The notes under the pieces: generated by a model
The model's database searches: none
The model's input: the letters and a program-made list of their open reading frames with translations, nothing else
What the model was told of the DNA's origin: nothing
Source of the DNA: Eisenbergiella porci
Lineage (GTDB): Bacteria; Bacillota; Clostridia; Lachnospirales; Lachnospiraceae
NCBI RefSeq assembly: GCF_009696275.1
Contig: NZ_VUMI01000003.1
Span: 1 to 64,000 of the forward strand
Reading direction: 5' to 3'
DNA length: 64,000 nucleotides
Position numbers and translations under genes: made by a program
Shown here: piece by piece, positions 17,241 through 32,505 of the stretch
How the letters are laid out: every line of letters begins with the position of its first letter
Position numbering within the stretch: the stretch's first letter is position 1

Positions 17241-17289
17241 CTACTACGTTAAACAATTTATGTGCTTTTTCTGCAAATATATGCTTTGA

Positions 17290-17525
17290 GTCCCGCCGAA
17301 TCCCTGGCCGGCTCCCTGTGGCTCCCCCTGTATGGCGTCCCCCCGGCGGGCTATGCTTTCTGTGCGGGCACGCTTTCGCTCGGTTAAAAACGCAGCGGTA
17401 CTAACGACGCAAAGTACGCGTCGTAAGGACCGGCGTTTTTAGACGACCCGCACAGAAAGCATAGCCCGCCGGGGGGACGCCATACAGGGGGAGCCACAGG
17501 GAGCCGGCCAGGGATTCGGCGGGAC
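17290..17525. repeat. Palindromic element 1: perfect 79-bp inverted repeat
   Basis: The left arm (17290-17368) and right arm (17447-17525) are exact reverse complements over 79 bp, with mismatches immediately outside and inside. The 78-bp loop is itself structured: TAAAAACGC (17385-17393) pairs with GCGTTTTTA (17433-17441), and inside that ACGACGC (17404-17410) pairs with GCGTCGT (17418-17424). The arms are GC-rich and non-coding. No target duplication flanks it. It lies downstream of ilvB and upstream of the serC promoter, both minus strand. The function is unknown. Confidence 0.95.
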
Positions 17526-17590
17526 GCGAAGGTTTTTGCAGGAAAAGGACATAACGGGTAGGATGGGGCTGCTTTTACTTTTAATAAGTA

Positions 17591-22590: not shown

Positions 22591-22914
22591 TTATTCGTCA
22601 GCGTTTGCCTTCTCTACCTGTGCAATGGCTGACTTCTGCATGGGGATACGGCAGTTTTTATTATTACCGAATTCTACGATTACAGTGTCATCCGTAATAT
22701 CGATCACGATTCCATAAAATCCGCTGCTGGTCAGAATGCTGTCTCCAATTTCAAGAGATGAAAGCATGGCGTTCATCTTCTTCTGTTCTTTCTTCTGGGG
22801 ACGGTACATTACGAAGTAAAAGAAAGCTCCGAAAATAACGACGTACATTAAAATTACGCCAATCATACTTCCTGGACCTGCTGCGGCTGCAGCTTCACTC
22901 GCTAAAATTCCCAT
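22591..22914 (-). CDS. yajC: Preprotein translocase subunit YajC
   Basis: YajC is a small inner-membrane partner of SecDF in protein export. This 107-residue protein has one membrane helix (about 19-40) and then the YRPQKKEQKKMNAMLSSL block and a compact C-terminal domain (GDSILTSSGFYGIV). The ATG is preceded by AGGAGGAATTAAGAAAAA. It lies downstream of tgt in the same direction, the usual tgt-yajC order, but here a 79-bp palindrome separates them and yajC has its own promoter. No secDF follows. Confidence 0.92.
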   Translation of the reverse strand: MGILASEAAAAAGPGSMIGVILMYVVIFGAFFYFVMYRPQKKEQKKMNAMLSSLEIGDSILTSSGFYGIVIDITDDTVIVEFGNNKNCRIPMQKSAIAQVEKANADE

Positions 22915-22965
22915 TTTTTCTTAATTCCTCCTACGTCAGGCTGAAACGCCCTGAAAATTTGAACC

Positions 22966-23028
22966 GTATGCGGGGTGACCGCATACATATCTAACAAACA
23001 TCATACACAAAAATGTGGCAAGGGGCAA
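22966..23028 (-). promoter_or_regulatory. yajC promoter with leader hairpin
   Basis: -35 TTGCCC (23023-23028), 17-bp spacer, -10 TATGAT (23000-23005). Shortly after the start the leader has a perfect 8-bp stem GTATGCGG / CCGCATAC (22966-22986) with a 5-nt loop. The promoter lies between palindromic element 2 and yajC. Confidence 0.6.
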
Positions 23029-23072
23029 GTCCTTTTGTCCAGTTTAATGAAATTTTAGATTTGGGAGGGGGA

Positions 23073-23316
23073 GCTGAAAAGCGTATCCGGCTGGGGCGGG
23101 TGCTGGGAAGGGATTGGGGGCCGGGATGGGAAAGGGGTTTTTGCAGGTGCAGATTATACCGGGCATTGCGAGGAGCCCAGGACAAAAATGTCAGGTGGGG
23201 CTTCCATTTTTTTTGGTCTCCTCTTCATGGTATAAAATGCACCTGCAAAAACCCCTTTCCCATCCCGGCCCCCAATCCCTTCCCAGCACCCGCCCCAGCC
23301 GGATACGCTTTTCAGC
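23073..23316. repeat. Palindromic element 2: perfect 79-bp inverted repeat
   Basis: Left arm 23073-23151 and right arm 23238-23316 are exact reverse complements over 79 bp, with mismatches at both ends of the match. The 86-bp loop pairs partly further (TATACC with GGTATA; GAGGAG with CTCCTC). On the plus strand the left arm contains many GGG runs and is a candidate for quadruplex formation. Its sequence is unrelated to element 1 apart from TTTTTGCAGG. It lies between tgt and yajC, 40 bp after the tgt stop. No target duplication or transposase is seen. Confidence 0.95.
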
Positions 23317-23356
23317 ACGGCCAGCCACTACGTAAGTGTGGAATGGGGAGATAGTG

Positions 23357-24490
23357 TTAGTCTTCGGGGTGGCTCATGTTGTCGAGCTTGTTTTTTTTAT
23401 AGGCGGCGAAATTGCCGGCGTCTAGGGCGGCGCGGATTTCTTCCATCATGGTGTTGTAGAAGTAAAGGTTGTGGAGGACGCAGAGGCGCATGCCCAGCAT
23501 TTCCTTGGCCTTTAGGAGGTGGCGGATGTAGGCGCGGGTGTATCTGCGGCAGGCCGGGCAGTCACAGCCTTCTTCTATGGGGCGGTCGTCCAGTTCGTAT
23601 TTGGCGTTGAACAGGTTGATTTTGCCGTGGTTGGTGTAGAGGTGTCCGTGGCGGCCGTTTCTGGAAGGGTAGACGCAGTCGAAGAAATCGATTCCCCGTT
23701 CAACGCCTTCCAGAATGTTGGCGGGAGTTCCCACGCCCATGAGATAGGTGGGTTTGTTCACGGGGAGGTAGGGCACGGTTTCGTCGAGTACGTGGTACAT
23801 TTCTTCGTGGCTTTCTCCAACGGCCAGGCCGCCTATTGCGTAGCCGTCCAGGTTCAGTTCAGAAATCCTTTTGGCGTGTTCGATTCGGATATCCGTGTAA
23901 ATCGCTCCCTGGTTGATGCCGAAAAGGAGCTGGTTTTTGTTGATGGTGTCTTCCTGGGAATTGAGTCTGGCCATTTCGGCTTTGCAGCGTTCCAGCCAGC
24001 GGGTGGTGCGGGCCACGGAATTTTCCACATAGGCCCGTTCCGCCTTGGCAGGGGCGCATTCGTCAAAGGCCATGGCAATGGTGGAGGCCAGGTTGGACTG
24101 GATCTGCATGCTTTCCTCCGGACCCATGAATATTTTTCTTCCATCGATGTGGGAGTTGAAGTAGACTCCTTCTTCCTTGATTTTCCGCAGGGTTGCCAGG
24201 GAAAATACCTGGAAGCCGCCGGAATCGGTGAGTATGGGTTTGTTCCAGGACATGAATTTATGGAGGCCTCCCAGCTGTTTGATGATTTTGTCGCCGGGGC
24301 GTACGTGCAGGTGGTAGGTGTTGGACAGCTCCACCTGGGTTTTGATCTGTTCCAAATCCTGTGTGGATACGGCTCCCTTGATGGCAGCCACGGTTCCCAC
24401 ATTCATGAACACGGGGGTTTGTATGGTTCCGTGTACGGTTTCAAATTCTCCCCTTTTTGCTCTTCCTTCCTGTTTCAGCAGACGGTACAT
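23357..24490 (-). CDS. tgt: Queuine tRNA-guanine transglycosylase
   Basis: Tgt swaps the wobble guanine of Asp, Asn, His and Tyr tRNAs for a queuosine precursor. The 377-residue protein has the substrate motif TDSGGFQVFSL (about 89-99), the nucleophile Asp in the DCVYPSRNGRHG block (about 263-275), and the zinc site CDCPACRRYTRAYIRHL (about 300-316). The ATG has a GGAGAG site. It is followed, after the palindrome, by yajC. queA and ruvB are not in view upstream. Confidence 0.95.
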   Translation of the reverse strand: MYRLLKQEGRAKRGEFETVHGTIQTPVFMNVGTVAAIKGAVSTQDLEQIKTQVELSNTYHLHVRPGDKIIKQLGGLHKFMSWNKPILTDSGGFQVFSLATLRKIKEEGVYFNSHIDGRKIFMGPEESMQIQSNLASTIAMAFDECAPAKAERAYVENSVARTTRWLERCKAEMARLNSQEDTINKNQLLFGINQGAIYTDIRIEHAKRISELNLDGYAIGGLAVGESHEEMYHVLDETVPYLPVNKPTYLMGVGTPANILEGVERGIDFFDCVYPSRNGRHGHLYTNHGKINLFNAKYELDDRPIEEGCDCPACRRYTRAYIRHLLKAKEMLGMRLCVLHNLYFYNTMMEEIRAALDAGNFAAYKKNKLDNMSHPED

Positions 24491-31655: not shown

Positions 31656-31978
31656 TTTTTCAGCCTCCTGTCCGCGATTTGCCCTCTTGACGGCATCCTT
31701 TTGCAGGTTAAACTAATCTTATCATAACGTCCCGCTTTTGTTAATCACTTTCGTAAATTTTTCCTGGGGTGAGGGGGCGGTCAGAGGGATGGTTTGGGGT
31801 GGGGGAAGAGGGGCCGGGGGAGGAGGGCTGGGGGTGGTGTCGGCTTGTTCGGACGGGAAAATGGGAAATTTCTAACCTTCCCGTTTTTCCCTGTCGATGT
31901 CAAATGACGCAAAACTCCTCACTGACGTTCGTCAGACAGCGTCAACCTTTCATTTAACTTCCGCCTGCCAATTACGTA
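31656..31978. other. G-rich tract and small cruciforms between divergent genes
   Basis: Between the lactonase start and element 3 the plus strand has a G-run tract (about 31766-31833) with more than eight runs of three or more G, a plausible quadruplex former. An ACGGGAA / TTCCCGT pair follows (about 31853-31883), then a cruciform at 31907-31942 (GACGC...GCGTC enclosing TGACGTTCGTCA). I see no gene. Confidence 0.5.
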
Positions 31979-32466
31979 GTCCCCCGTCCCTCCCGACTTC
32001 TCCGCCGGGGCCGGCAGGAGGCGTTGGCGAGGGGCTTGGGAGGGGTGTTTGGTCCCCGGTTTTGCCCTCCCTTCTCCTGGTACGGCCGCCGGCTGTTTGC
32101 CTCCTTTACAGGTGCGGCGGGGTGTTTTGGGCTCCATTGGAAAAAACGGTGATATTTCTTACAGCCCCGGAAAGCCAGGATTACGCCGCCCTTAGCAGCC
32201 TGTCTGACGAGCGGCAGCCGACTGAAAGTCGCTGCGCGAGGAGTTTTGGCTGCGTTGGCGGAATTCTGGTTTTCCGGGACTGTTAGAAATACCCCGTTTT
32301 TGAGACTGGAGCCCCAACCCCCCCCGCCGCACCTGCAAAGGAGAGAAACAGCCGGCGGCCATACCGGGAAAAGGGAGGGCAAAACCGGGGACCAAACACC
32401 TCTCCCAAGCCCCTCACCAACGCCCCCTGCCAGGCCCTGGCAGAGAAGTCGGGAGGGACGGGGGAC
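31979..32466. repeat. Palindromic element 3: imperfect 488-bp foldback
   Basis: The left arm (about 31979-32205) and right arm (about 32240-32466) align as reverse complements along almost their whole length with scattered substitutions and small indels; the outer 24 bp are perfect. The centre (about 32206-32240) carries GCGAGGAG and a small GCAGCGACTTTCAGTCG-type stem. Apparent reading frames inside it are by-products of the repeat. It ends 40 bp before the promoter of the XRE-potABCD unit. No target duplication is visible. Confidence 0.9.
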
Positions 32467-32505
32467 GCCCTCATTTCCCACCAGAAAATTTTACAAATTA
32501 ATGGA

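Follow-up and report, generated by a model that had tools for sequence, protein, structure and literature searches.

Bacterial MITEs are short, noncoding, intergenic sequences that occur in many copies and fold into stem-loops (PMC10969869; this and the other published accounts are used here in extract), and the same can be said of the hairpin family described below, whose members in one genome also have common ends and target duplications. They can also be targets of insertion sequences: IS1111 inserts into QMITE2 (PMC10969869), and a DDE_Tnp_1 element lies inside copies of our core, termed A, in a mouse-gut genome (G310). The likeness has limits. MITEs are typically AT-rich (PMC10969869), whereas our hairpin arms are G+C-rich and near-perfect. 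Moreover, unlike the MITEs of that account, the hairpins have a core in common while their arms are near-unrelated among copies outside one genome, Lachnospiraceae bacterium CE91-St56 (G005; AP025576.1, a single contig), and a parent insertion sequence was not found.

A second set of precedents concerns imperfect palindromes. Template switching has been described for E. coli quasipalindromes (PMC7202029) and proposed for RNA stems (PMC8794818); in both, as we propose for the hairpins, imperfect repeats become perfect through multi-base, double-sided changes. The cases in those extracts are reporter hotspots or short RNA stems, in contrast to arms of 60-150 bp here (PMC7202029, PMC8794818). Unlike the quasipalindrome cases, our arms outside G005 are similar between copies at about chance level and are still paired (PMC7202029, PMC8794818).

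Palindromes dispersed through genomes offer a third comparison. The hallmarks of REP sequences are a GTAG/CGTC tag and a RAYT. REP sequences and REPINs, like the present family, are multi-copy palindromes dispersed outside genes (PMC2817692, PMC3116915, PMC3733652). REPs measure 20-40 bp (PMC3733652), whereas the hairpin, at about 260 bp with variable arms, is far longer. Many long perfect inverted repeats per genome, as seen here, are also known from the long coding palindromes of Nematomorpha mitochondria (PMC6649704); those are mitochondrial and within genes, and the extract mentions no conserved core, in contrast to the intergenic hairpins with core A. In the extracts of the literature on Lachnospiraceae palindromic MITEs, Eisenbergiella repeats and bacterial perfect inverted repeats, we found no description of the family.

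Here we analyse a hairpin in a 64,000-nucleotide stretch of the Eisenbergiella porci genome (NZ_VUMI01000003.1, positions 1 to 64,000), referred to as the window. We consider it probable that the repeat is a MITE-like, non-autonomous mobile hairpin which inserted between tgt and yajC in an Eisenbergiella-type member of the Lachnospiraceae, and that its arms are rewritten by template switching.

Results

A long hairpin lies between tgt and yajC and is absent there in nine of 12 relatives

The initial annotation described a perfect 79-bp inverted repeat, and this proved exact: the arms occupy 23073-23151 and 23238-23316, enclose an 86-nt spacer and pair with each other at 79 of 79 nt. When mismatches are tolerated, the repeat extends over 23062-23327 with 99-nt arms, 93% of which are paired. 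The RNA fold of this interval reaches -219.7 kcal/mol, while 200 dinucleotide shuffles average -99.5 (sd 5.15); the resulting z of -23 rules out a chance origin for the palindrome. The features of the window considered here are as follows.

23062..23327, minus strand: whole hairpin element of core family A, about 266 bp; the outermost 11 bp on each side are only partly paired
23073..23151, no strand assigned: left perfect arm, 79 nt, G-rich (arm alignment and own-genome search)
23238..23316, no strand assigned: right perfect arm, 79 nt (arm alignment)
23140..23253, minus strand: conserved structured core A (covariance-model match of 112.2 bits, covariation, and column conservation over 94 copies)
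23357..24490, minus strand: tgt, upstream neighbour, its stop codon 40 bp off the perfect arm
22591..22914, minus strand: yajC, downstream neighbour (open reading frame)
17284..17531, no strand assigned: sister element of core family C, 79/79 perfect arms (17290-17525), core unrelated to A
31970..32475, no strand assigned: third hairpin, core family B, with imperfect 125-nt arms and a long structured spacer

The flanking genes we take to be tgt and yajC, following the naming in the initial annotation and recognition of their translations. By eye, the interval between the hairpin and yajC holds a promoter-like sequence common to relatives, and no T-run follows the stem on either strand, so the hairpin does not have the form of an intrinsic terminator.

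The repeat does separate the two genes, as had been proposed. The gap between them is 442 nt in the window and 88-242 nt in the nine of 12 relatives in which it was measurable. In all nine the hairpin insertion is absent: the gap contains no inverted repeat (arms of at least 20 nt, 85%), nor the degenerate version that might have spoken against the initial description, and relatives thus provide the empty site by which a MITE is recognised. In the other three of the 12, where the end of tgt was not located, the region upstream of yajC has small and unrelated-looking repeats with 20-29-nt arms. YajC is most similar in G005 and Eisenbergiella tayi DSM 26961 (G012); the window gap exceeds that of these two relatives by 275-277 nt, close to the 266 of the element.

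The source assembly is a draft of 149 contigs, in which assembly or amplification might have produced a fold-back palindrome. Such an artefact is scarcely credible here: the same family and architecture recur in E. tayi DSM 26961 and in the single-contig genome AP025576.1, where copies have target duplications.

Core A is a conserved structure dispersed in Lachnospiraceae

When the window's own genome (G000) was searched with the element, the matches centred on its inner part and reached at most about 30 nt beyond the core, and the arms in whole matched only each other. Core A is the inner ~115 bp of the element and includes the innermost portions of the arms. It folds into an imperfect stem with a GNA/GNA internal loop, a 3-nt bulge and a terminal hairpin, and this structure is conserved, with covariation. 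Across 94 aligned copies the GNA/GNA loop shows no variation at its four G and A positions, despite the near-perfect arms that flank it.

The window's genome contains 11 distinct core-A places, the window copy included (16 rows of matches, five of them opposite-strand echoes). A covariance model built from eight inner parts detected core A in five of 13 genomes of the genus, the window's own among them, with 68 matches in G009, 44 in G005, 10 in G012 and 2 in G006; the other eight gave no match among up to 150 candidates scored per genome. Short (~266 bp), noncoding and dispersed in many copies (11 places here, 44 and 68 in two relatives), the hairpin is built and distributed as a MITE would be. 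Across a sample of the family, 13 of 299 genomes had matches, including the window's own and G009 (up to 12 candidates scored per genome), and the mouse-gut genome G310 has 135, many of them paired in inverted orientation.

A scan of genome contigs with a core pattern returned at least 118 stretches; carriers among the pattern matches listed were Lachnospiraceae, Hungatella, Eisenbergiella and one Coprococcus comes, as well as the mouse-gut genome, which is recorded under Clostridiaceae, and one MAG with the name Spirochaetales. Viral contigs gave no exact match to one core pattern, leaving a viral carrier unsupported, and a plasmid search with 22900-23500 found no match. Against Rfam 15 the window yielded tRNA only, and 20 loci yielded 17 matches, every one below gathering and 13 of them to miRNA precursor families. 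With no match at gathering score, a known RNA family was rejected as the identity of core A.

A conserved spacer between inverted repeats is also what an invertible switch would present, its repeats lying around a promoter or regulatory spacer. We regard this as a very remote prospect, since the arms vary among copies and genomes, which makes a single recombinase site unlikely, and since the spacer is the structured core.

The arms are long, near-perfect and poorly conserved between copies

Long, near-perfect arms of their own were present in 28 of 30 fetched copies; one of the two failures, L041, adjoins a contig end. By a lenient rule an arm was found for 138 of 140 core matches, with lengths of 8 to 154 nt. 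Median arm length was 80 to 108 nt in the four best-sampled genomes, over a range of 23 to 154 nt (one 10-nt fit set aside), and the remaining genomes had shorter arms, with a median of 27.5 nt. In G009 the median was 101 nt, and perfect arms occurred in 17 of 46 copies, the longest at 134 of 134 positions.

Identity between copies was taken by a measure that permits gaps and therefore has a high floor. On this scale, arms, shuffled arms and cores gave, respectively, 0.75, 0.75 and 0.86 in G009; 0.78, 0.74 and 0.86 in G000; 0.76, 0.74 and 0.78 in G012; and 0.80, 0.75 and 0.90 in G005. Compared copy with copy, the arms come close to chance similarity in three genomes; those of G005 are visibly kin, and 25 copies there have a recognisable arm in common. 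Arms below 55 nt were excluded from the identity, composition and stop-codon counts and kept in the mismatch counts; the single G006 copy in set A4 stands outside every group of arm statistics.

In composition, the arms of the window's genome have a G+C of 0.68 against 0.49 for their flanks. The GGG-rich arm that drew attention in the initial annotation is real but limited to this genome: C exceeds G in the 3' arm of 10/10 copies here, against a mixed 9/28, 19/46 and 4/7 in three relatives (arms of at least 55 nt). Because arm G-richness is not conserved, a quadruplex is unsupported as the reason for the structure.

Two further properties of the arms were considered. Of inward-pointing frames, 46 of 108 end within 30 nt outside an arm, a raw count without background. 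Outward growth of arms to stop codons, suggested by eye, gained no support, the distance from arm to stop being no smaller in copies lacking the family's ends than in copies having them (p = 0.23); no enrichment between convergent genes is claimed, orientation assignments being rough and 19 of 91 copies unclassed. Loss of SbcCD was rejected as the cause of hairpin stability in the genus: SbcD scored above the cut-off in eight of eight genus genomes tested, so that loss of the nuclease does not explain stability there. Among seven other carriers tested, SbcD was above the cut-off in three and below it in three, and one (G209) gave no match.

Ends and target duplications in G005 kin point to mobility

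In G005, 25 of 28 aligned copies have ends in common; the other three, L024, L229 and L239, lack the family's ends and were excluded from the G005 counts. A 5-bp target duplication (at least four of five bases) flanks 20 of the 25, perfectly in 14 of them, whereas 2,000 control re-pairings averaged 2.05 and never exceeded 7. Inspection by eye recognised no clear terminal repeat or target duplication at the window copy, and no common termini at the arm ends of 30 copies in G009.

Core A occurs with ends of more than one type. One type, ACTCAAAC, has a 5-bp duplication; another, TAGGCAATTGCGAAAC, has 11-bp duplications at L216 and L217 (by eye); and in G310 the ends CTAACCCGG stand without duplication around two inverted cores (by eye). 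That core A has differing ends between genomes suggests either several kinds of mobile carrier or very fast evolution of the ends. Altogether, the tgt-yajC hairpin behaves like a non-autonomous mobile element.

A parent transposon with the same ends was not found: the end-pattern search in G005 gave 95 sites, and the two regions inspected, both from arm-only matches, were core-deleted copies without a transposase, so that a parent may have escaped notice. Nor was any autonomous element or transposase found for the core A family. Some G005 end-pattern spacings are very short (105319-105348, 239909-239938 and 6175569-6175650), with possibly little beyond the two ends. The DDE_Tnp_1 insertion sequence by core copies in G310 was rejected as the parent, since its insertion lies within core A, making it a visitor.

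The arrangements in G310 are varied. A DDE_Tnp_1 insertion sequence lies inside or beside core A at L203 (G310:C29) and L174 (G310:C74), and several contigs of this genome end near core A, perhaps owing to insertion of the same element. Elsewhere, for example at L099:470-1150 and L123:3380-4050, two opposed core hairpins lie within one bigger element whose inverted repeats are nested, and L181 and L191 resemble collapsed forms of this arrangement.

Changes in one arm are matched in the other among G005 copies

Counts of concerted change derive from G005 alone. Its 10 closest independent copy pairs show double-sided change at 35 paired positions and single-sided change at 23; under independent mutation 1.2 double-sided changes are expected, with a maximum of 6 in 5,000 simulations. 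Besides the commonest pair, the G005 family (25 rows by 80 paired columns) had 71 double-sided variants; 38 are of transition type and 33 of transversion type. A double change was present in 235 arm cells, and 68 were not Watson-Crick. It is established statistically that, in G005 kin, the arms within a copy change in concert, from one Watson-Crick pair to another and with transversions included. Such an excess of double-sided changes that preserve perfect pairing is one feature expected of a quasipalindrome corrected by template switching.

Covariation of the arms could also be driven by pairing if the stem were selected as RNA, be it in a dsRNA-forming transcript, a terminator or a 3' stabiliser. 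The conserved structure of core A would fit such selection, as would the many copies directly downstream of stop codons (the 46 of 108 frames above, again without background). Mismatches in the core stem lean the same way, in that G.U is no rarer than A.C with one pair set aside: 37 G.U against 40 A.C in Eisenbergiella, 24 of the latter at that one pair, and 27 against 15 in other genomes. The arms tell otherwise. Among 8,688 arm pairs in four genomes we counted 80 G.U, 115 A.C and 73 mismatches of transversion type; reading the other strand turns the first two figures into 115 against 80, which is still small. A tolerance of G.U well above A.C is therefore not seen in the arms, and the core pairs are mixed. 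Furthermore, the 33 transversion-type doubles among the 71 cannot have passed via G.U, pairing is perfect over up to 134 nt, and the T-run is missing from both strands at the window hairpin. We judge selection of the stem as RNA to be improbable, and the arms, without an RNA-type excess of G.U, would speak against a processed RNA from the hairpin. An RNA-selected stem should favour G.U and transitions; that neither is clearly seen fits template switching.

The copy at L239 is informative in another way: it has kept the family's inner arms, and its outer sequence is new in both arms. On one side this sequence is the end of an orthologous gene, through its stop codon, common to G012 and G000; on the other it is an inverted copy. 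This is the one case of flank copying, involving ~16 nt of coding sequence. Such wholesale replacement of an arm might also arise if the arms were made anew at each transposition, with one arm always copied from the other on a single-stranded or fold-back intermediate. Double changes between near-identical copies would agree with that (L042 and L046 differ by three double and no single changes), but the target duplications and common ends in G005 indicate ordinary transposon ends, and the 23 single-sided mismatches in the same G005 pairs imply that arms also mutate between events. We think it unlikely that the arms are renewed in this manner.

From the between-copy patterns, chiefly those of G005, we infer that template-switch correction is probably the best explanation of the double-sided changes. 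A hairpin extruded during replication would allow one arm to template the other, as in template switching of the quasipalindrome type. Such copying would erase mismatches in the arms, and through it new sequence, once flanking host DNA, could enter both arms. The arms would then drift fast and in lockstep, and the mismatched core would be retained by selection. Since the arms are G+C-rich relative to their flanks, simple copying of the flanks would be insufficient and something more would be needed, such as biased repair. The correction should also erase mismatches in the core, and the GNA/GNA loop is invariant nonetheless; hence we take the folded core A to be kept by selection, either as RNA or as single-stranded DNA.

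Sister hairpins have other cores

The initial annotation noted that another perfect repeat in the window, the core family C element listed above, has exactly the same arm length and an unrelated sequence. Both do have 79/79 arms, but since arms span 23 to 154 nt in four genomes, the equality is likely a coincidence. Their sequences do differ; each, however, is a member of a multi-copy family in which the core is conserved and the arms vary. Core C gave match rows in four of four genomes searched (41 in G012, 30 in G005, 14 in G000 with the query included, and 4 in G009). Ten loci, including that of the window, were examined for arms, leaving out L304 (the same site) and L311; near-perfect arms of 29-117 nt were present at nine, and a contig end truncates the tenth, L308. 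The third hairpin of the window, of core family B, has kin recognised by eye at two other places, L008:1885-2168 and the E. tayi locus L289.

At one intergenic site, G005 has a core-A hairpin (L239) and E. tayi a core-B hairpin (L289 and L290 compared). The corresponding site in the window's genome has an apparent decayed trace of core A (L289/L290 against L239).

Discussion

It is tempting to speculate that these families are parts of a modular class of mobile DNA hairpins in Lachnospiraceae, in which one arm design is combined with three or more unrelated cores (A, B and C among them). The arms would be continually rewritten by fold-back copying. Inheritance would rest with the core, which would be recognised when folded as a single strand and would have been acquired by mobile elements with different ends; outside the core, sequence would be free to vary and only self-complementarity would be inherited. 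We offer this wider view tentatively, as a rather doubtful extension.

The hairpins constitute a repeat family of gut Lachnospiraceae, with up to 135 matches per genome and no Rfam match, that is itself a target of insertion sequences and appears to break draft assemblies. If our reading is true, it would be a natural, many-copy record of bacterial template-switch correction in which the corrected arms measure 60-150 bp. Selection on RNA would then not be needed to produce long perfect stems with their seemingly 'compensatory' changes, which would bear on the common inference that covariation proves a functional RNA helix.
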